Source: Parvularcula sp. LCG005 (lineage in GTDB: Bacteria > Pseudomonadota > Alphaproteobacteria > Caulobacterales > Parvularculaceae). Taken from it: a stretch of DNA of 64,000 bases. The stretch covers positions 1,689,001 through 1,753,000 of the forward strand of contig NZ_CP136758.1 in assembly GCF_032930845.1 (NCBI RefSeq), given 5' to 3'. The notes beneath the pieces are model-generated. The model saw nothing but the letters and a program-made list of their open reading frames with translations, was not told the origin of the DNA and made no database searches. A program made the translations under genes and the position numbers. Below, piece by piece: positions 34,056 through 48,949 of this stretch; the stretch's first letter is position 1, and every line of letters begins with the position of its first letter.

Positions 34056-34059
<4 letters not shown>
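33169..34059 (-). CDS. murB: UDP-N-acetylenolpyruvoylglucosamine reductase
   Basis: A 296-residue flavoenzyme reducing UDP-GlcNAc-enolpyruvate to UDP-MurNAc with [15 protein letters not shown]-type FAD motif appears as [31 protein letters not shown] holds the flavin loop, and the catalytic Ser and Glu are in GSTFKNPDP and [11 protein letters not shown]. It is of the type I family. The ATG overlaps the murC stop (ATGA). Confidence 0.95.
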
Positions 34060-35489
<1,430 letters not shown>

Positions 35490-35532
35490 GGGCACTCCTA
35501 CTCCAGGCTGGTCATGGACGCGTGAAAGACGC

Positions 35533-36630
35533 TCAGGCGCGCTGTTCTAGCAGAGCGTCGATGAGATCCGCCAGCGTTGCGGCTGCATTGGCGGGGACTT
35601 TCCCGCGGGCCGCTGCCGCGCGATTGCCAAGGTCTGATCCTGCAGACAAACGCGGCAGAAGAAGGGCGGCGGCCGCTTCGGGCGTGGCCTTGCCTTCGAG
35701 CAGGATATCCGCGGCGCCCGCCTCCACCAGTACCTCGGCATTGGCACGCTGATGATCATCCATCGCGATACCCAGCGGGACGAGAAGACTGGGCCGGCCA
35801 ATGACGGACAGTTCCGTCACGGTCGATGCACCAGACCGGGCCATCACAAAGTGCGACTGGGCAATCCGCCGAGGAAGATCGACGAAGAATGGCGCCAGCT
35901 CAGCCGTGATCCCAGCTGCCGCATAGGCCTGAGACACTGCATCATGGTCCGTCTCGCTGACCTGGTGCGTCACCTCAAGGCGCTCACGCAATGGTGACGG
36001 GAAACTGGCCAGCGCCTGTGGGAAGACCCTGCCGAACAGCGACGCCCCCTGGCTCCCACCGAAAATCAGCACCCGAATTTTATCGGCCTCAGACGGCGGC
36101 ACATACGGGATGCCAGCGGCGTCCTGTACCGCCTGGCGCACCGGGTTGCCCGTCTGCACAAGTTTGCCCTTGATCTTTGGCAGGCGATCGAGCCGGGCAA
36201 AACCATGGGCGACAAAGCGGGCGGAAGGTGCCGCACGGCGGTTGACCCGTCCCAGCACAGCGTTCTGTTCATGAACGCCATAGGGAACCTTCAGTGATGA
36301 GGCGGCAAAAAGACCGGGCGCGGAAGGATAGCCGCCAAAACCGACAACCATGTCGGCCTTGAACGCCGTCAGCGCACGACGCGCCGCCATCACCCCCTGC
36401 CCCATCGCCGATGCCATGGACAGTTTGGCCAGCGGGCCACGCACATTCGGATTGGCGGCCTTCAGTATGGCGGTCTGGTCGGCCGGGAAAGATTTGGCAT
36501 AGCGCATGCCCCGGTCATCCGTGAGCAGCAGAACAGACCAGCCGCGTTTCTTTGCCTCTTCGGCGAGCGCTTCCGCCGGGAACATGTGCCCCCCGGTCCC
36601 GCCCGCAGCGAGTGCCAGCCGACGCGTCAT
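35533..36630 (-). CDS. murG: lipid II synthase (UDP-GlcNAc transferase)
   Basis: A 365-residue GT28 enzyme that adds GlcNAc to lipid I at the inner face of the membrane. [12 protein letters not shown] at the N-terminus, [35 protein letters not shown] and [13 protein letters not shown] are the family motifs. ATG at 36630 overlaps the ftsW stop by four bases; longer frames upstream are shadows of ftsW. Intact. Confidence 0.95.
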
Positions 36631-37751
36631 TGGTGGGCCGCTGACCGGCGTGTCAGGGCCAGCAGAAGCCCGGCTGTCAGTCCCGTCGCGAGAAGGGACG
36701 ATCCGCCATAGGAGATGAACGGCAGCGTCATGCCTTTGGCAGGCAGGATGGCGAGGCTGACGCCGATATTCACCATGGCCTGAAACGCGAGCTGCGCCGT
36801 CAGCCCGGCGATGGCACATCGCACGAAAAGACTTTTCGTCTGCTCCGCATGCCGCAGGCTGCGATACACGATGGCGCCGAACAGGATGATGATCCCTGCA
36901 CCGAGGATAAAGCCGAACTCCTCCGCCGCGACGGCAAATATGAAGTCCGTGTGCGCGTCGGGAATATTGTCCTTCACGCTGGGCATGTCATTCAGATTGT
37001 GACCCAACAGCCCGCCACCGGCGATAGCTTCGATCGCACTGTCGACCTGATATGTGTCGCCAGACTCAGGGGCCAGAAAGCGATCGATCCGGCTGCGCAC
37101 ATGAGGCGCGAACTGATAGCCGAAGGTGATGATACCGGTCATGGCGGCACCAAGACCAAGGACCCAGCCCCAGCTCCAGCCCGCGATAAAGAACATGACA
37201 CCCCAGATCGCCGTCAGCAGGACAAGCTGTCCATAATCAGGCTGCATCAGCAGGGTGAACGCTCCCAAGGCGAAGAGCCCCAAGCTGAGCGCCCCGCCCG
37301 GAAAGCGCTTGTCTCGTTCTGCCTCTGCCAGCAGCCAGGCCGTCAGCATGACAAAGCCCGGCTTGAAAAATTCCGAAGGCTGAAGACTGAAACCCGCAAG
37401 GCTGAGCCAGCGATGTGCGCCCTTGATTTCCGGGCCGATAAACAGCGCGGCAATCATCAGAACGAGCGCCCCGCCACCAACGACCACGCCGACGCGCCGG
37501 GCCTGTGCCGGGGTCAGGAGCGAGCACCCGATCATGATGACCAGCGCCGGGCACAGGAACAGGAACTGGCGCTCCACAAAGTGCAGCGGATTGTCGATGT
37601 TCATCCGCATGGCCGCGACGGGACCCGCCGCCGTGCACATCACAATACCGATCAGAACGAGACCGAGGATCAGGTACAGCAGAGGCTTGTCCATTTCAGA
37701 CCACCATTGCCGCATCACCTGTCGTGGTGTTGGCGAGGACATATCAAGCAT
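36627..37751 (-). CDS. ftsW: SEDS glycosyltransferase FtsW
   Basis: A 374-residue polytopic protein that polymerises lipid II at the septum with FtsI. HRWLSLAGFSLQPSEFFKP, a long QLVLLTAIWGVMFF membrane part, DNIPDAHTDFIFAVAAEEFG and PFISYGGSSLLATG are SEDS signatures. ATG at 37751 has GAGG six bases upstream and overlaps the murD-like stop by eight bases. Confidence 0.95.
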   Translation of the reverse strand: MLDMSSPTPRQVMRQWWSEMDKPLLYLILGLVLIGIVMCTAAGPVAAMRMNIDNPLHFVERQFLFLCPALVIMIGCSLLTPAQARRVGVVVGGGALVLMIAALFIGPEIKGAHRWLSLAGFSLQPSEFFKPGFVMLTAWLLAEAERDKRFPGGALSLGLFALGAFTLLMQPDYGQLVLLTAIWGVMFFIAGWSWGWVLGLGAAMTGIITFGYQFAPHVRSRIDRFLAPESGDTYQVDSAIEAIAGGGLLGHNLNDMPSVKDNIPDAHTDFIFAVAAEEFGFILGAGIIILFGAIVYRSLRHAEQTKSLFVRCAIAGLTAQLAFQAMVNIGVSLAILPAKGMTLPFISYGGSSLLATGLTAGLLLALTRRSAAHQ

Positions 37752-39126
37752 AGCGGGCCTCGATATCCATATGTGACTGCACAACGGATCGGAAATCATT
37801 GGGACCGATGCCGGTCATTTCGAACGGCAGGCCGGGAGAATAGAGGATCACGGGCGCCGCACTGGGATCCTGTGCCGCAAGTTTTGTGGCGTCGCGATAG
37901 GCGGCTGCCACGGCATCGGCGAGACCGGTGTGACAGGTCACGCTGTCATCATCCGTGCTGTCGCCAATCAGATAGGCTCCGTGCACGGACGAGACTGATC
38001 CCGGGACCTGAGATCCCTTCTTTGGTGCATGGGCGTCGCTCCCGATCCAGAACACGTCCGGACAGGCGTGAATGGCGCGGGCCGCGGCCGCCGTCGAGCT
38101 GGCGAAGCTGTCATCGATGAACATCACCGGGCCAACGGATCCGAGACATTCAAACCGGCCTTTAAGCCCTTTATAGCTGTGCAGCGCCTTGATGATCAGC
38201 GCCGGCGCGATGTCAAAAGAAAGACAGGCGGCAATCGCTGCAGCCGCATCCTGATTGAGGTGCGATCCGACGAAGGCCGGTGCACGCGAGAAATTGCCCA
38301 ATGGCTGCGTCTTCCGTTTGTGGGCGGAATAGGCCGTTCCCCCCAGAACGAAGATCCCGTGGCTGAGAGCCGCCTCGCCGGACACGGGAATGATCGTCCC
38401 TGTCCCGGCGCCGGGGCACTGGCCCGACCGCAGCATGGTGCAGAGCTCCTGCCCCAAGGCGTCATCGACACCAATGATGGCGCGATCCTCGGGCCCTTGG
38501 GATTTGAACACTTTCAGAAGCGACCGGAGCGCCATCTGGATCTGGTCAGGGTCGAGGAGACCCGCGACGCTGAGCGAAATGGCAATGTTGGGCTTGAAAT
38601 CGCGAGCAATCGACAACCGCCGGACCGGCAGTTCCAGAATGTACGTCATCGCCTTTGAAGGGGCGGCCATATCCATGAACGGAGAGCCGATTGGCCCTCC
38701 AACAGACACAGGCCGGCCCAGCTCGGACAGAATATGGGCGATGATCGATACGGTGACGGATTTGCCCGCTGCCCCCGTGACGGCGATCACCGTTGGCCGT
38801 TCTTCCGGTGGCAGAGCGTCGATGCTCTGGGAGAAAAGGTCGAGATCCGTCAGGACCGCGACACCTGCGGCGGCGGCACGATCGACGAGGGTCAGGGCCA
38901 GACCACGACGATCACCATCGGCGATGACCACAGCCGACAACTGATCCATCGGCCAGTCCGTCGGCCGCCTCATCTGAACATCCGTATGCGCCCCTACCCC
39001 GCCCGAGCGATCAAATGCGATGACGGTCGCCCCGCTTTCGATCAGGGCCTCAGCTACGGCCAGGCCCTGTGGACCCAGTCCAAGGACGCCAACAGTCTGG
39101 CCACGATATGCGGGTAGAGGGAACAA
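37744..39126 (-). CDS. MurD-like Mur ligase homologue lacking the catalytic motifs
   Basis: A 460-residue protein of normal MurD length in the murD slot between mraY and ftsW, alignable end to end with MurD (YRGQTVGVLGLGPQGLAVAE at the start; GVDDALGQELC mid-protein). The catalytic motifs are eroded: P-loop TGAAGKSV (117-124; normally TGTNGKST), ELPVRRL (normally ELSSxQL), LSVAGLLDP (normally LxPDHLDRH), Leu where the carbamylated Lys should be (about 203), GSHLNQD (normally GxHNxxN), GLKGRFE (normally GLxHRxE) and DDSFASS (normally NDSKATN). It is unlikely to join D-Glu to UDP-MurNAc-L-Ala. The frame is uninterrupted and overlaps ftsW, so it is probably expressed. Confidence 0.85.
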   Translation of the reverse strand: MFPLPAYRGQTVGVLGLGPQGLAVAEALIESGATVIAFDRSGGVGAHTDVQMRRPTDWPMDQLSAVVIADGDRRGLALTLVDRAAAAGVAVLTDLDLFSQSIDALPPEERPTVIAVTGAAGKSVTVSIIAHILSELGRPVSVGGPIGSPFMDMAAPSKAMTYILELPVRRLSIARDFKPNIAISLSVAGLLDPDQIQMALRSLLKVFKSQGPEDRAIIGVDDALGQELCTMLRSGQCPGAGTGTIIPVSGEAALSHGIFVLGGTAYSAHKRKTQPLGNFSRAPAFVGSHLNQDAAAAIAACLSFDIAPALIIKALHSYKGLKGRFECLGSVGPVMFIDDSFASSTAAAARAIHACPDVFWIGSDAHAPKKGSQVPGSVSSVHGAYLIGDSTDDDSVTCHTGLADAVAAAYRDATKLAAQDPSAAPVILYSPGLPFEMTGIGPNDFRSVVQSHMDIEARYA

Positions 39127-39135
39127 GCGGGTATC

Positions 39136-40242
39136 CTATCGCAGTTTGAGAGAGCTGAGGCCAATCATCGCGAGGATGAAGGCGATGATCCAAAACCGGA
39201 TCACAATGGTGGATTCTTTCCAGCCCAATTGCTCGAAGTGGTGATGGACCGGCGCCATCTTGAAGACGCGCTTGCCGGTCAGCTTGAACGACGCAATCTG
39301 GATCATCACCGACAGGGCTTCGAACACGAAAAGACCGCCAATAATGGCCAACACCAGCTCGTGCTTGACGGCCACGGCCATGGCACCGAGCGCACCGCCC
39401 AGCGACAGAGACCCCGTATCGCCCATGAAGATCATGGCAGGCGGCGCATTGAACCAGAGGAACCCCAGCCCAGCGCCGACAATAGCCCCGCAAATCACAG
39501 CGAGTTCCCCCACATTGGGGACGTAGATCAGTCCAAGATATTCCGTGTAGTCCGCCCGGCCGACGAGATAGGCGATCAGCATGAAGCTGCCTGCCGCGAT
39601 CATGACAGGTACGATCGCAAGGCCATCAAGTCCGTCGGTCATATTCACCGCATTGGACGAGCCGACAATGACCAGCGCCGCGAACGGCACGATCAGCATC
39701 CCCATGGGGATCAGCAATCCCTTCACGAACGGAATGGGGACACCGGTTGCAATCCCCTCATCGATTCCGGGTGTCTGCTGCAGGACACTGACGCAGATCC
39801 AGCCAGCGACCAGCGCGGTCACGCATTGGACGATCAGCTTGCCTGACCCGACGACGCCGGTGGACGTCTGCTTTGTGACTTTGAGATAATCGTCCCAGAA
39901 ACCGAGCAGGCCGAAAACGACAGTGACGCCGAGCACGACCCAGACATAAGGATTGTTCAGCGGCGCCCAGAGCAGCGTCGAGATCACCAGGCTGAGCAGG
40001 ATAAGAACGCCGCCCATGGTGGGGGTGCCGGCTTTCTCGACAATATGGCTTTGCGGGCCATCGGCGCGGATCGGTTGCCCTTTGCCCTGCTTCTTGCGGA
40101 ACCAGCGGATCAGCCGCGGTCCGACGATAAAGCAGATGAGCATGGCGGTCATGGTCGCGCCACCGGTGCGGAAGGTGATGTAACGGAACACGTTGAAGAT
40201 CGTGAACTCGTCAGCAAGGGGGGTCAGGAGATGATAAAGCAT
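39136..40242 (-). CDS. mraY: phospho-N-acetylmuramoyl-pentapeptide transferase
   Basis: A 368-residue enzyme with ten membrane segments that makes lipid I from UDP-MurNAc-pentapeptide and undecaprenyl phosphate. [11 protein letters not shown], the DD motif in [34 protein letters not shown] and [13 protein letters not shown] are all there. Nine bases separate it from murF upstream and nine from the murD-like gene downstream. Confidence 0.96.
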
Positions 40243-40250
40243 GGCGCCCG

Positions 40251-41675
40251 CTACTCCCCCATTGTGGCGTTGGAAAGGAAAGCATCGAGCAAAGGTCCGA
40301 CGCGTGATGCGTTCGAGCCCTTGAAGAGGACGATATCGCCGTCCTGTAGATCCGCCAGCAGCGGCTCGATCAGATCAAGCGCCTGTTCGGCGTGAGCGCG
40401 GTGCACGCCAGAGCCGAGCGCATCGCGCAGCGGCACCATTCCTGGTCCGGCCGTGTACACCATGTCGACCCCTGCTTCAGCGATCGGGGTGGTCAATTGT
40501 CTGTGAAAGACGTCGCTGTCCTTGCCCAATTCCCGCATTTCACCAAGGACAGCGATCCGCCGCCCTTCCGTGCCCTGTCTCGTCGTGCCCAGCACCTTCA
40601 ACGCCGCCGCCATGGACGCCGGATTGGCGTTATAGCTTTCGTCGATAATGTGGACGGTTGCCCCGCGGATGGTCATGACATGAGTCGCGCCTCGGCCACT
40701 GCCCGCTGCAAACCGCTCAAGGCCTGCAATGACGGAGTCCACCGTTGCACCGCTCGCCAGGGCAGCGGCGATAACCGCACAGGCATTGCTCGCCTGATGA
40801 CGGCCGGGCGAATCGAGAGTGAAAATCTTCTTCTCGCCTTCAACCGATACCGTCAGTTTGGCCGGGCCGGCGCCATCAGGGTCATAGTCCAACAGGCGCA
40901 CCCCCCACTGCGCACGCGCGCTTTCCCCAAAGGGAATGATCGTGGTGACGCCATTTCGACCGGCCTCGTCGCACAGGAAATCATAATAGTCGCTATCCGC
41001 CGGCAGGACAGCCACACCACCCGGGCGAAGCCCGGTCAGAATCTCTGCTTTCGCCGCCGCAATACCATCGACGGAATCAAAAAACTCGAGGTGAGCCGCC
41101 GCTATGGTCGTGATGATCGCCACGTGCGGCCTGACCAGTCCGACCAGCGGCGTGATCTCGCCCGCATGGTTCATGCCGATCTCGAAAACGCCAAACCGGG
41201 CATTTGCCGGTAAAGCCGCGAGGGTCAGCGGTACGCCGATGTGATTGTTGAAGCTCTTCTGTGCCGCATGGACCTTGCCTGAAGGCGCCAGCGCAGCGCG
41301 CAGCATCTCCTTGGTGCTGGTCTTGCCCGCACTGCCAGTGACGGCGATCAGCTTGCCGAAATTCCGGTCACGCGCGGCCGCGGCCAGTGCCGACAGGCCC
41401 GTGAGTGTGTCCTCGACCATCAGGGCAGGACCATTGGCAGCGGCAGTAGCATCACTGGCCAGAGCAGCAGTAGCGCCCGCTTCCCGCGCTGCCTGAATGA
41501 AGTCGTGACCGTCCCGCGCATCCTTCAGCGCGACAAACATCTCGCCTGATCGCAGCGTTCGGGTATCGATCGACAGCCCACTGACGACCCACTCATCCCC
41601 ACCGGCAAGCTGTCCGCAGGTCGCTGCACGCGCTTCTAACGCAGTCCAGAGCGGCGTGGTCGACAATACACTCAT
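40251..41675 (-). CDS. murF: UDP-N-acetylmuramoyl-tripeptide--D-Ala-D-Ala ligase
   Basis: A 474-residue Mur ligase with intact motifs: P-loop [24 protein letters not shown], the AAHLEFF segment and [12 protein letters not shown]. It adds D-Ala-D-Ala to the UDP-MurNAc-tripeptide. The ATG overlaps the murE stop by four bases. Confidence 0.95.
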
Positions 41676-43120
41676 GCTTCACTCGCCTCAGCCATCAAAC
41701 GGCTGGTCGTGGCGACATCGTCAAAGGGATAGGTCACACCCTCTATCGTCTGTCCAAGTTCGTGACCTTTGCCCGCTACAAGAAGCACGTCGCCAGGCTT
41801 CAGTGCGGCAACGCCTGCGGCAATGGCGTCTGCGCGACCACCAATATTCAGGGCAGACGGCGCGCCGGTCTGCACTTCGGCCCGAATAGCCGCAGGGTCT
41901 TCCGAACGCGGATTGTCGTCAGTAATGATCAGATGCTGCGCGGCGCTGGCGGCCGCTTTGGCCATCAGCGGCCTCTTGGTTCGGTCCCTGTCACCGCCTG
42001 CGCCAAAGACGATATGAATATCACCATCAGCATGGGGACGGATCGCGGCGAGCGCCGTAGCGATAGCGTCAGGCGTGTGGGCATAGTCCACATAGGCCGT
42101 GGCCTCACCACCATCGGCGAAGCGCTTGATACCGGCCAGCTGCATACGTCCCGGCGCCGCTGAAATCGATGACAGCTGCTCAAACACCCGCTCGGCGGAC
42201 AGACCGCTAACAATGGCCAGCCCTGCAGCAACCAGCGCGTTGTCGGCCTGATACGCACCGATCAGCGGCAGTGCGATCTGATAGGACCGCCCCTGGTGCT
42301 GGATGTCCATGGACAGGCCATCAACCGTGGCCTCGAGTTGTTTGAGGACGATGTCCTTCCCCTTGCGCCCGACTGAGAAGACCTTTCGGCCCGCCGCCAC
42401 TGCGGCTTCCGCCGCACGGTCCGAGCCCGGACCATCGGCGTTGATGACCGCTGTTGCGCCGACAGGCAGCAATTCCGTCAGCAGGCGCATCTTTGCGCTG
42501 AAATAGTCCCGAAAGTCGGGGTGGTAGTCCAGATGATCCTGGGTGATGTTGGTGAATGCCGCATATTTGAAACTGACACCATCAGCCCGGTGCTGCGACA
42601 GACCGTGGGAGGACACCTCCATCGCAAGATGTGTGGTGCCCATCGCGGCCATGGTCGACAGAATCTGATGGATTTCGACGGGGTCCGGCGTCGTATGACG
42701 CAGTGCATAATCATAGCCAGGCGCAACGGCACCCAATGTGCCCAGCGATCCGGCCTTTTTGCCCAGCGCATTCCAGATCTGCGACGTGAAGCGCGCCACG
42801 GACGTTTTGCCGTTCGTGCCGGTAATGCCAGCGACGTGTTCAGGCTGGCCCGCGTGAAAGCGCATGGCAATCTGCGCGAGCGTCAGGCGCGGCTCTTCGC
42901 TTTCGATGACAGGAACGCTGGCCTTCGTGCCTGGCAGCGCTAGGACGGCAAATGCGCCATCTTCCACCGCCTGTTCAATGAATGCACGGCCGTCAATATT
43001 GCTGCCCGGCAGGGCGGCGAAAAGATAGCCAGCCTTGACCAGGCGACTGTCCGCCGTGATGCCCGTGATCTCAACGGGCGGCAAGCGTCTGGCCAGCGCC
43101 GTCAGTTCATTGAGCTTCAT
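41672..43120 (-). CDS. murE: UDP-MurNAc-L-Ala-D-Glu--meso-diaminopimelate ligase
   Basis: A 482-residue Mur ligase: P-loop ITGTNGKTSVARF, AMEVSSHGL, NITQDHLDYHP, YVDYAHTPDAI, and DNPRSEDP, the motif that selects meso-diaminopimelate. The substrate of this enzyme contains D-Glu, so the cell must still make UDP-MurNAc-L-Ala-D-Glu although the neighbouring murD product looks inactive. ATG at 43120 follows GGAG and overlaps the ftsI end by 14 bases. Confidence 0.96.
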   Translation of the reverse strand: MKLNELTALARRLPPVEITGITADSRLVKAGYLFAALPGSNIDGRAFIEQAVEDGAFAVLALPGTKASVPVIESEEPRLTLAQIAMRFHAGQPEHVAGITGTNGKTSVARFTSQIWNALGKKAGSLGTLGAVAPGYDYALRHTTPDPVEIHQILSTMAAMGTTHLAMEVSSHGLSQHRADGVSFKYAAFTNITQDHLDYHPDFRDYFSAKMRLLTELLPVGATAVINADGPGSDRAAEAAVAAGRKVFSVGRKGKDIVLKQLEATVDGLSMDIQHQGRSYQIALPLIGAYQADNALVAAGLAIVSGLSAERVFEQLSSISAAPGRMQLAGIKRFADGGEATAYVDYAHTPDAIATALAAIRPHADGDIHIVFGAGGDRDRTKRPLMAKAAASAAQHLIITDDNPRSEDPAAIRAEVQTGAPSALNIGGRADAIAAGVAALKPGDVLLVAGKGHELGQTIEGVTYPFDDVATTSRLMAEASEA

Positions 43121-44870
43121 CAATTTCCGTCTCCGTCAACAAGGCCGTCAGCGCATTATTGTCCGTCAACTGACGGTCCCCCTGCTCACGGCGCAACCCC
43201 ACAAACCCGTCAAAGGCAACATCATCGCCTACCGGCATCAGACCTAGAGCCGGCGCCACACGCTCCACCACCCGCTTGAAGACCGGCGCAGCCACGTATC
43301 CGGCTGTGGCATAGCCATAGGTGGATTCGATCCCTTGCGGCTCGTCGAACGACACCAGCAGCACATATTGAGGATCATATCCCGGGAAAGCGCCGATGAA
43401 GCTCGAGATCAGCTCGCCATGGTCGTCATAACCGCCGATGCCGGGCTTGTCTGCGGTCGACGTCTTACCGATCGGATAGAAGCCGGCCACTTCCGCCTTG
43501 CCGCCAGTTCCGTCGGTCACCGTCTTGCGCAGGACAATGCGCATCTGGTCGCTGGTCGCGCGGGAGAACGCCTGATGCTGTTTGCCTGCCCCGCCGTCAA
43601 TGAATGTTGGCGCGTAGTAAGTACCGCCATTGACCACCGCCGCGAAGGCCGCCGTCAACTGCAGCGGCGACACGGCGATCCCGTGACCGTAGGAAGATGA
43701 TGCCAGCTCCGACGGCCGCCACTCCTTGGACAGCATCGGTGTGCCCGCCTCCGCAAGCTCGGTGGCGAGTGGGCGGTCGAGGTTGAGGGTTTCCAGCACG
43801 GCACGAAAGCCGTCCACGCCCAACCGCTGGACGATCTGGATCGTGCCGATATTGGACGAGTACTGAACGACCTCTGCCGTCGTCATCGGCGATTTCTTGT
43901 GGCTGTAATCGTCAATCGTCCAGGCGCCGATCTTGAGCGGCGTCGCAACGTCAAACTGATCCGTCAGTTCAATCACGCCATTTTCGAGCGCAGCGGCCAC
44001 GGTGATCGGCTTGAAGGCTGACCCCATCTCGTAAACATCTGACATGGCGCGGTTCCGCCACGCCCCTGTGTCCGCTGAACCGGGCTGATTCGGATTGTAG
44101 TCGGGCAGGCTCGCCAGCGCGCGAACTTCCCCAGTATTGGCGTCGAGCAAGACACCCCAGGCGGCCTTGGCCGAGAACGTCTGCAACGCGCCAGCCAGCT
44201 CATCCTCCAGCACCTGCTGCGCCACAAGATCAATCGACAGGCGAACTGGGCCTTTCGCGCCAGGCTTCATGGTCAGATCAAGGGCCTTTTCCACGCCCAC
44301 AACGCCGCCGCGACCGGGAATCGTGTAGCCGACCACATGGGCGGCCAGATCCCGCTGCGGGTAGGCGCGCCCAGTGGTATCAGGGAAACGCAGGCCCGGC
44401 AGGCCAAGCGCGATCACGGCTTGGCGCTCTTCCGGCTGGATGGAATCCATCACCAGCGTGTACTGTTTTTTGGCCAAGCGGGTGCGCAGTCGGTCAGCAT
44501 CGATGGTCGGGAACAGGCCCTGCAGACCGGATACCGCCTCTTCCACATCCCAGATATCCCGGCCGTCGATGGCCAGGCCTTCGGCGGAGCTGTTCATGAT
44601 CAGTGGACGACCATTGCGGTCAACAACCTCCGGACGAATGGGGACAGCATTCTCTACACGGATAAGGCGAATCTCATCGTCCATGCCAAACGCAAGGTAG
44701 CCGAGCCGCAGGATCATCACGGCGAATGCGAACATGAAAAAGCCGCCACACAGCATCAGCCGGAATTGCCCATCTGACTTGGCCGCGGCGACCGGCGTGC
44801 GGTCGCGCGGGGCATGATCGTCGAAGACGGTCGTGACCGTGACAGGCTGTGAGAGGCCTTCCATCATCAT
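43107..44870 (-). CDS. ftsI: septal transpeptidase FtsI (PBP3) with KTS third motif
   Basis: A 587-residue class B penicillin-binding protein. One membrane helix (about 35-60), a pedestal domain (NAVPIRPEVVDRNGRPL), then the transpeptidase domain: Ser284 in GSAFKP, the SSN motif in YSSNIG, and GKTSTADKPG where Lys469-Thr470-Ser471 replaces the usual Lys-Thr-Gly. It crosslinks septal peptidoglycan. The first of three tandem ATGs shares bases with the ftsL TAA (TAATG). Confidence 0.94.
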   Translation of the reverse strand: MMMEGLSQPVTVTTVFDDHAPRDRTPVAAAKSDGQFRLMLCGGFFMFAFAVMILRLGYLAFGMDDEIRLIRVENAVPIRPEVVDRNGRPLIMNSSAEGLAIDGRDIWDVEEAVSGLQGLFPTIDADRLRTRLAKKQYTLVMDSIQPEERQAVIALGLPGLRFPDTTGRAYPQRDLAAHVVGYTIPGRGGVVGVEKALDLTMKPGAKGPVRLSIDLVAQQVLEDELAGALQTFSAKAAWGVLLDANTGEVRALASLPDYNPNQPGSADTGAWRNRAMSDVYEMGSAFKPITVAAALENGVIELTDQFDVATPLKIGAWTIDDYSHKKSPMTTAEVVQYSSNIGTIQIVQRLGVDGFRAVLETLNLDRPLATELAEAGTPMLSKEWRPSELASSSYGHGIAVSPLQLTAAFAAVVNGGTYYAPTFIDGGAGKQHQAFSRATSDQMRIVLRKTVTDGTGGKAEVAGFYPIGKTSTADKPGIGGYDDHGELISSFIGAFPGYDPQYVLLVSFDEPQGIESTYGYATAGYVAAPVFKRVVERVAPALGLMPVGDDVAFDGFVGLRREQGDRQLTDNNALTALLTETEIDEAQ

Positions 44871-47436: not shown

Positions 47437-47512
47437 GTCGGGTGTCTTGCCGTCTTTTACCGTCAAATCAACGGCTCATTGCCAAATCCGACGAATAGTC
47501 TAGGCGGTGGGC

Positions 47513-48949
47513 ATGATGAAAAATGCGCATCTGATTGGCCTTTGTGGTGCTGGCATGTCTGCCGTCGCCCGCCTGCTTCAGGAAACCGGATATATCGTGA
47601 CGGGGTCGGATGAAGGGTTTTATCCGCCGGTCAGCGACTACCTCACCCGCATCGGTCTTGGCTGCATGATCGGCCACCGCGCCAGCAACATTCCGCCCGA
47701 CCCGGACCTGATCGTGATCGGCAAGCACGCCAAGCTCGTGCCCGAAAGCAATGAAGAAGTCGCGGCCGCACTGGACCAGTACGCGGACAACGTTCACTCC
47801 TTCCCTCAGGTGCTGGCCCAGTTGACCGCCGATCGCGAACGGATGGTGGTCGCAGGATCCTACGGCAAGTCGACGTTGACCTCTCTGATTACCTGGTGCC
47901 TCGTTTCCACTGGCAAGGCGCCGGGCTGGTTTATCGGGGCCATCCCAAAAGGCCTGTCCCATTCGTCAGCCATGGGAGGTGCGGGGCCGTTTATCTTTGA
48001 AGGCGATGAGTATCCCAGTGCCAATTGGGACGACCGGCCCAAATTCGTCCATTATGATCCGGCGACGGTTCTGTTGACGTCTGCCACCCATGACCACGTC
48101 AATATCTATCCCACGTTGCAGAGCTATCATGCGCCATTTCATGCGCTCATGACCGGGCTGTCCGAACGCCAGGGCCACCTGATCGCGTGCACGGACGAGC
48201 AATATTCGTCGAACTTCTTCTACGCATTCCCCGGCCGCAAGACGTCCTACGGGCTTGAGCCCGGCGCAGATTACGGGGCGCAGATGATCGAACTGGGAGA
48301 TCCCATCGCTGGCACGCCGACCCGCTTTACCCTGACCGTGGACCGAACCCCTTATCCCGGCTTCGAGACCAGCCAGATGGGTCGACATGCGGTCCAGAAC
48401 ATTTGCGGCGCCGCCGCCTATCTTGTGGGCGAAGGCCATCTGACCATTGATGAGTTCCAGGCCGCGGTCGCAGCCTTTGCAGGGCTTGAGCGACGGCTCG
48501 ACCGCAAGGCACCGGGCAGCGCTCTGCCCGTCTATGAAGGGTTTGGCTCGTCCTACGAGAAAGCCCGCGCGGCGATTGATGCCATGCGGGCGCATTTTCC
48601 CCAGCGTCGCCTGATCGTGATGTTCGAACCGCACACTTTCACCTGGCGCAATCGCAATGCCCTGTCGCAATATGACAGCGCCTTTGCCGGTACCGACACC
48701 GTCTGGATGTTTGCACCGCCCGACCACGGTCAGGGCACGCATGATCAGGTATCCGGCGAAGAGATCGTCGAGCGCGCACGGCAAACCCATCGGGACGTGC
48801 GGATTTTCACCAAGGACGATGTGAGCCAGGTGCTGGACGATGCCTCTCCTTCAAACGACGTGTTGCTGATCCTGTCGTCGGGCAGCTTTGGCGGCAGCCT
48901 CGCGAGATTTCTCGCAGCGGTGGTCGACCGCCATCCGGCGACAAGCTGA
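47513..48949 (+). CDS. Mpl-like Mur ligase family protein
   Basis: A 478-residue homologue of Mpl (UDP-MurNAc:L-Ala-D-Glu-meso-DAP ligase), which recycles wall tripeptide. It keeps HLIGLCGAGMSAVARLL, GDEYPSANWDDRPKFVHY, the ATHDHVNIYPTL region and SSGSFGGSLARFL. Two motifs differ: the P-loop is AGSYGKSTLTS (normally AGTHGKTTT) and the YDDFAHHP motif is YEGFGSSY (about residue 340), with FEPHTFTWRNR following. These changes suggest a distinct subfamily that may use another substrate. ATG at 47513 is chosen over a GTG at 47507. It is divergent from rnpB. Confidence 0.85.
   Translation: MMKNAHLIGLCGAGMSAVARLLQETGYIVTGSDEGFYPPVSDYLTRIGLGCMIGHRASNIPPDPDLIVIGKHAKLVPESNEEVAAALDQYADNVHSFPQVLAQLTADRERMVVAGSYGKSTLTSLITWCLVSTGKAPGWFIGAIPKGLSHSSAMGGAGPFIFEGDEYPSANWDDRPKFVHYDPATVLLTSATHDHVNIYPTLQSYHAPFHALMTGLSERQGHLIACTDEQYSSNFFYAFPGRKTSYGLEPGADYGAQMIELGDPIAGTPTRFTLTVDRTPYPGFETSQMGRHAVQNICGAAAYLVGEGHLTIDEFQAAVAAFAGLERRLDRKAPGSALPVYEGFGSSYEKARAAIDAMRAHFPQRRLIVMFEPHTFTWRNRNALSQYDSAFAGTDTVWMFAPPDHGQGTHDQVSGEEIVERARQTHRDVRIFTKDDVSQVLDDASPSNDVLLILSSGSFGGSLARFLAAVVDRHPATS

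Follow-up and report, generated by a model that had tools for sequence, protein, structure and literature searches.

A degenerate MurD in the dcw cluster of Parvularcula and its relatives, probably retained as a pseudoenzyme beside a MurD2/MurL gene pair

We analyzed a 64,000-nucleotide stretch of Parvularcula sp. LCG005 DNA (contig NZ_CP136758.1, positions 1,689,001 to 1,753,000; hereafter the window), in which the MurD position of the division and cell wall (dcw) cluster is held by a full-length but catalytically degenerate MurD homolog, here called pseudo-MurD. This protein is probably a retained pseudoenzyme, no longer a ligase and kept for a structural or regulatory role, and a MurD2/MurL pair encoded elsewhere in the genome most likely carries out its former step. 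An earlier note, made from the letters of the window alone, had proposed such a pseudoenzyme, and at the level of sequence the proposal is now well supported: active-site residues are lost, the predicted fold is kept, and the gene is under purifying selection, which is strong in two sister lineages and weaker in its own genus.

Active-site losses in a full-length MurD homolog

The pseudo-murD frame is unbroken over 460 codons from a TTG start, and its 3' end overlaps the start of ftsW. The surrounding genes encode, in order, MurE, MurF, MraY, [MurD], FtsW, MurG, and MurC (MurG was identified from sequence alone), which places the pseudo-MurD in the usual MurD slot between MraY and FtsW. The MurD model TIGR01087 aligned with residues 11-432 of 460 at 123 bits, below its curated cut-off of 211.95, and none of the Pfam Mur domains was reached by the protein in a profile scan. 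MurC, MurE, and MurF of the window each exceeded the cut-off of their own equivalog model (Table 1). The full-length dcw MurD homolog described in the earlier note is thus borne out, and all six motif changes that it listed are present letter by letter (GAAGKSV at the P-loop, no DHxDRH, and the four others in Table 1). A sequencing error or frameshift is unlikely, because the frame is open and losses of this kind recur in each of the nine further genomes of the genus examined (G001-G009).

Site residues were counted in 17 degenerate MurDs of the Parvularculaceae, including those of two metagenome-assembled genomes (MAGs; G001 and G007) without detected MurL. Intact controls came from 38 of 79 MurL-negative relatives, namely those whose MurD was retrieved, and every one of the 21 tabulated site residues was present in 38/38. 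Among the degenerate proteins, Asn138 and Ser159 were each kept in 1/17, Lys198 in 2/17, and His183, Asn268, Lys319, and Lys348 in none. Asn138, Ser159, His183, and Lys198 are all absent from the window protein and are present in all 38 controls and in 20/20 MurD2 proteins of the group. In E. coli MurD, activation is described as requiring carbamoylated Lys198 (PMC4816537). The window protein retains the P-loop Lys115 and Glu157, and the pattern of retained residues suggests, as far as sequence can, that nucleotide binding outlived ligase chemistry.

AlphaFold2 predicted a three-domain Mur ligase fold for the pseudo-MurD (predicted local distance difference test 83.9, predicted template modeling [TM] score 0.87) from an alignment in which the window protein was joined by 55 MurD2 proteins and four further Mur ligases encoded in the window. 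In a structure search with this model, PDB ranks 1-32 were all MurD, with TM scores (query) of 0.50-0.69.

Table 1. Features of the window, with positions counted from its first letter; fractions are counts among the 17 degenerate MurDs of the Parvularculaceae
Feature	Position	Strand	Basis or residue counts
dcw-cluster MurD homolog, catalytically degenerate (pseudo-MurD), 460 amino acids	37744..39126	-	motif reading, TIGR01087, structure prediction
GAAGKS P-loop	38758..38775	-	Lys115 kept 17/17, Asn113 1/17
ELPVRRL instead of ELSSxQL	38614..38634	-	Glu157 kept here and in 13/17; Ser159 1/17; Gln162 2/17
Leu203 at carbamylated Lys198 position	38518..38520	-	Lys in 2/17
GLKGRFE instead of GLxHRxE	38149..38169	-	His301 to Gly 17/17; Arg302 kept 15/17
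DDSFASS instead of NDSKATN	38095..38115	-	Asn316 to Asp 17/17; Asp317 kept 17/17; Lys319 0/17
MraY, upstream neighbor	39136..40242	-	TIGR00445, 383.5 bits, above cut-off
FtsW, downstream neighbor	36627..37799	-	longest open reading frame; TIGR02614, 315.3 bits, slightly below cut-off of 337.5
MurF	40251..41675	-	exceeds TIGR01143 cut-off
MurE	41672..43123	-	exceeds TIGR01085 cut-off
MurC	34056..35495	-	exceeds TIGR01082 cut-off

A second MurC/Mpl-like ligase is encoded near the dcw cluster, at window positions 47507-48949 on the forward strand. It is a divergent Mpl-type protein that falls below both cut-offs (206 bits vs 335 and 187 vs 389) and, by eye, reads YEGFGSSYEKA at a MurC motif position.

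The MurD2/MurL pair and the fate of MurD in relatives

The search of the whole genome (3.08 Mb, one contig, 99.99% complete) that the earlier note had called for recovered a second MurD, MurD2 (C1:2199257-2200534), which at 226 bits exceeds the MurD cut-off. A gene for a MurL-like epimerase overlaps murD2 by four bases, near genome position 2.2 Mb and away from the dcw cluster. The product of this open reading frame (ORF) matched a single family, NF041275, at 256.4 bits over profile positions 66-438 (373 of 447), below the curated cut-off of 700 bits for a model that is named for Xanthomonadales; the ORF probably begins too late. The MurD2 carries MurD-type site residues together with Glu182 and Arg348, and murL is adjacent. 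Across the group, MurD2 proteins have Lys115, Asn138, Glu157, Ser159, His183, and Lys198 in 20/20, Arg348 in all 19 with a residue at that position, and Glu182 in 15/20. Positions 182 and 348 are described as setting L-Glu preference in Xanthomonas MurD2, and the same source names Parvularcula among the MurD2/MurL genera (PMC8788868). The separate route to D-Glu that had been predicted from the window is therefore present, judged by sequence, as a gene pair in the same genome.

MurI had no match in this genome in a profile search, and no MurI over the cut-off was found in any of the 60 family members searched (G000-G059), whether MurL-positive or MurL-negative; a replacement of MurI by MurL in the family was rejected for this reason. 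A D-aminotransferase match of at least 200 bits was found in 18/18 MurL-negative and 0/19 MurL-positive family members (37 searched), a line that we set after the scores had been seen (gap from 161 to 223 bits), the curated cut-off being passed by 1 of 61 genomes. The best match in the Parvularcula sp. LCG005 genome, at 109 bits, is an aminotransferase at ~49.8-50.7 kb of the window. Given this complementarity, MurL/MurD2 appears to have replaced D-aminotransferase plus MurD in the family, as far as sequence matches sorted by our own score line can indicate.

MurL was found in 21 of 100 relatives, with the window's own genome counted. The dcw MurD of these 21 was degenerate in 16, partly inactivated in one, not found in three, and intact in one. 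The partly inactivated protein (G013) carries the changes Glu157Lys, Asp182Val, Lys198Met, Lys319Ser, and Lys348Gln and still scores 309 bits. The intact dcw MurD, of Marinicaulis sp. OFTM304 (G049; L081, L119), occurs together with a MurL/MurD2 pair whose MurL comes from another branch, grouping with the Rhizobiales-type MurL; this genome possibly represents the starting state of the replacement. The three genomes in which MurD was not found (G022, G030, and G036) belong to the Aquisalinus group, and their slots (L078 1109-6883; L080 1109-3330; L075 6336-6503) are filled by unrelated genes or consist of just 166 bases, the latter separating the MraY and FtsW ORFs of G022. Among the genes in these slots, one encodes a 714-amino-acid protein that by eye resembles an OLD-type ATPase/nuclease. 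No full MurD match at all was obtained in three MurL-negative genomes (G017, G052, and G053). The G007 assembly is 6% contaminated, and the MurD of G025 is cut by a contig end.

The losses are common to related species, a point on which the earlier note had asked for evidence. In a tree of MraY, FtsW, MurG, and MurC from 43 genomes (a quick tree with only Shimodaira-Hasegawa-like approximate likelihood ratio support, from which G025 and G036 were omitted for lack of genes), degenerate MurD occurs in Parvularcula, Aquisalinus, and two further genera, and again in the Maricaulaceae, while the partly inactivated MurD of G013 sits within the intact group. If intact MurD is ancestral, MurD has been inactivated at least three times. 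The fork at the family base lacks support, and the four genera could contain more than one inactivation event. In a quick MurL tree built with a simple model, the MurL proteins of the window's order, except that of G049, form one supported group, and so only the losses of MurD, not the acquisitions of MurL, are separate.

In the Maricaulaceae (G087, Alkalicaulis satelles, and a MAG), the slot holds an ORF of 432-450 amino acids that scores only 21-26 bits to the MurD model. All three copies (G087 L082, L232, and L233) have Gly301 and Asp316, as do 17/17 in the Parvularculaceae, though the losses look separate on the tree. In a wider contig scan, we inspected the region in 20 MurL-positive genomes, chosen out of 46 by MraY-MurC spacing (all 11 wide, 9 of the narrow). 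A degenerate MurD is present in two of the 20, Alkalicaulis satelles and a MAG next to it. In the other 18, FtsW directly follows MraY (nine), a DUF4394 gene lies between mraY and ftsW (six Devosia-group genomes; L235, L236, L237, L238, L239, and L240), or the slot holds short ORFs of no family (two) or, in Pelagibacterium montanilacus (one), a 406-amino-acid ORF of no known family (L234 3698-4918, reverse strand). This last ORF was ruled out as a MurD by an hhalign probability of 0.1.

Selection, counterevidence, and alternative explanations

All degenerate copies that are not cut by a contig end have full-length open frames. The ratio of nonsynonymous to synonymous substitution rates (dN/dS), the check on selection proposed in the earlier note, indicates purifying selection in two sister lineages. 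For the degenerate MurD, the NG86 estimate was 0.075 in the G012-G020 pair (bootstrap 0.050-0.107; YN00 0.102) and 0.063 in the G015-G033 pair (bootstrap 0.040-0.095; YN00 0.042), with dS of 0.55-0.63 across the two. Neighboring genes in these pairs gave 0.015-0.125, and four intact MurD pairs gave 0.059, 0.097, 0.113, and 0.200, so that the degenerate copies, at 0.06-0.08, lie inside the range of the active enzyme. All three domains were below 0.1 in both pairs with the last 25 codons excluded. Under substitution-only neutral drift to similar divergence, the frame stayed open in 0/2000 runs for each of three genes. Because of this selection in two sister lineages, we infer that the pseudo-MurD still does something. 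A plasmid search found nothing and is not informative.

Several observations weigh against a pseudoenzyme kept for a function. In the window's genus, dN/dS is 0.20-0.41 at dS of 0.89-1.9, higher by a factor of 1.1 to 6.4 than for any neighbor gene measured in that pair; in the Maricaulaceae it is 0.38-0.50. Constraint thus looks looser in both, although near-saturated dS makes this unsure. The degenerate MurD of the Maricaulaceae has also lost the P-loop lysine. MurD was not found in the three Aquisalinus-group genomes, where it is therefore dispensable, and is absent from the slot in 18/20 inspected regions of the wider scan, on which ground the idea that MurL genomes in general carry a dead MurD was rejected. 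In the assemblies of two fragmented MAGs (G001 and G007), a degenerate MurD occurs without MurL and without any MurD or MurD2 that passes the cut-off, and a D-aminotransferase-like gene is present; missing contigs are the likely reason for the lack of MurL. The alignment behind the structural model was made of Mur ligases alone, which biases the model toward the Mur fold. Finally, the group's MurD2 proteins share several of the losses, keeping Lys319 in 0/19 and His301 in 5/19 of those with a residue there, Asn316 in 3/19, and Asn268 in 3/20, and Arg348, as in MurD2, is found in 5/17 degenerate MurDs. On recount, His301, Lys319, Asn316, and Asn268 were therefore weakened as proof of inactivity. 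The case for inactivity now rests on Asn138, Ser159, His183, and Lys198; of the changes listed in the earlier note, those at His301, Lys319, and Asn316 do not by themselves prove it.

Of the other explanations, the one that fares best, while still unlikely, is a neo-functionalized ligase or ATPase that retains ATP binding and works on a different, unknown substrate. The retention of Lys115 and Asp317 in 17/17, Arg302 in 15/17, and Glu157 in 13/17 would fit, as would the fixation of Gly301 and Asp316 in 17/17 and the strong constraint in two pairs. However, Lys198 is present in at most 2/17 and His183 in none, the substrate-side positions vary by subclade, unlike what would be expected of one new fixed active site, and the P-loop lysine is lost in the Maricaulaceae as well.

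We consider it rather improbable that the dead MurD acts like a prozyme, activating MurD2 or MurL by binding to it. Dead activating paralogs reportedly exist in other enzyme families, and a degenerate MurD does accompany MurL in 16 of the 21 MurL-positive relatives. Yet in the three Aquisalinus-group genomes MurL and MurD2 occur with no MurD found, 18/20 regions inspected in the wider scan lack it from the slot, and MurD is a monomer, which we counted against such a partnership.

There is only a slight chance that the gene is a neutral relic, decaying and awaiting deletion. The faster evolution relative to neighbors in its own genus and in the Maricaulaceae, and its absence from part of Aquisalinus, are what such decay would produce; dN/dS of 0.06-0.08 in the two pairs, the open full-length frames, and the neutral runs, none of which kept the frame, argue against it, and it is disfavored for g4 and Aquisalinus. 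Smaller still is the probability that the frame is kept solely to couple ftsW translation to mraY, as the overlap of the pseudo-murD end with the ftsW start might suggest, since coupling would not constrain amino acids throughout, yet all three domains are constrained in two pairs, and G022 manages with 166 bases and no MurD in between. Equally remote is a MurD that remains active with an atypical catalytic site, for which the MurD fold, the retained Glu157 and P-loop lysine, and the losses shared with MurD2 speak, but which would have to work without the four residues present in all controls and all MurD2 proteins of the group, among them the lysine that activation of the E. coli enzyme is described as requiring (PMC4816537), in a genome where a MurD2/MurL pair is present and where MurI and D-aminotransferase searches recognized no D-Glu source.

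A proposed noncatalytic role and its relation to known systems

A retained pseudoenzyme could have arisen as follows. MurD2 would add L-Glu, and MurL would convert it to D-Glu. Released from catalysis, the old MurD would then have lost site residues for UDP-MurNAc, magnesium/carbamate, and D-Glu. Its predicted fold of three domains and its slot flanked by MraY and FtsW were kept, and so, in the Parvularculaceae, were Asp317, the P-loop lysine, and in most copies Arg302. The remaining protein most likely holds or regulates cytoplasmic Mur partners, with MurG, MreB, and other Mur proteins as candidates, and it may be switched by nucleotide binding. In Thermotoga, MurD is described as binding MurG and MreB (PMC6420597), two proteins that are viewed as scaffolding the Mur enzymes of the cytoplasm (PMC6420597, PMC4929429); contacts of this type are most likely what the dead MurD keeps. 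More tentatively, and at rather less than even odds in our estimation, a noncatalytic, nucleotide-dependent role of MurD in Mur or division complexes, one that MurD2 cannot assume, may be what keeps the pseudoligase in at least three lineages, as an ATP-binding protein in the Parvularculaceae.

Assembly of Mur ligases with MurG and MreB has been reported, and any noncatalytic duty is hard to test since the genes are essential for their chemistry. In marine Parvularcula and its relatives, evolution seems to have split the chemistry, now with MurD2/MurL, from the dead MurD that remains. With the chemistry left to MurD2/MurL, deletion of MurD in Parvularcula or Aquisalinus would therefore probe a structural role alone. 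The series from intact (Marinicaulis sp. OFTM304) through first losses (G013) and dead (Parvularcula) to missing (G022) may also illustrate how an essential enzyme is retired.

Dead enzymes kept for other roles are already known; to our knowledge, a Mur ligase example, recurrent after replacement of its pathway, is new. Within the open-access literature, searched by title and abstract, there was no report of a Mur ligase pseudoenzyme, of a dead MurD together with MurL, or of a dead MurD in Parvularcula. Compared with MurD proper (TIGR01087, UDP-N-acetylmuramoyl-L-alanine--D-glutamate ligase), the pseudo-MurD shares the slot flanked by mraY and ftsW, the length, the predicted fold of three domains, Asp317, and the lysine of the P-loop, and differs in falling below the equivalog cut-off and in lacking Asn138, Ser159, His183, Lys198, and other site residues. 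MurT and other relatives with the Mur ligase fold share that fold and a P-loop, but MurT models gave no match at the 0.001 limit, and the neighbors of the pseudo-MurD are mraY and ftsW. As in the Xanthomonas MurD2/MurL pathway, the genome has overlapping murL and murD2 outside the dcw cluster, and its MurD2 bears the residues that mark L-Glu use; an inactivated dcw MurD left behind has no mention in the portions of the review consulted (PMC8788868). Although no Mur ligase case was found in the literature on dead-paralog regulators (prozymes), the pseudo-MurD resembles them in being a catalytically dead copy, under selection, beside an active relative.

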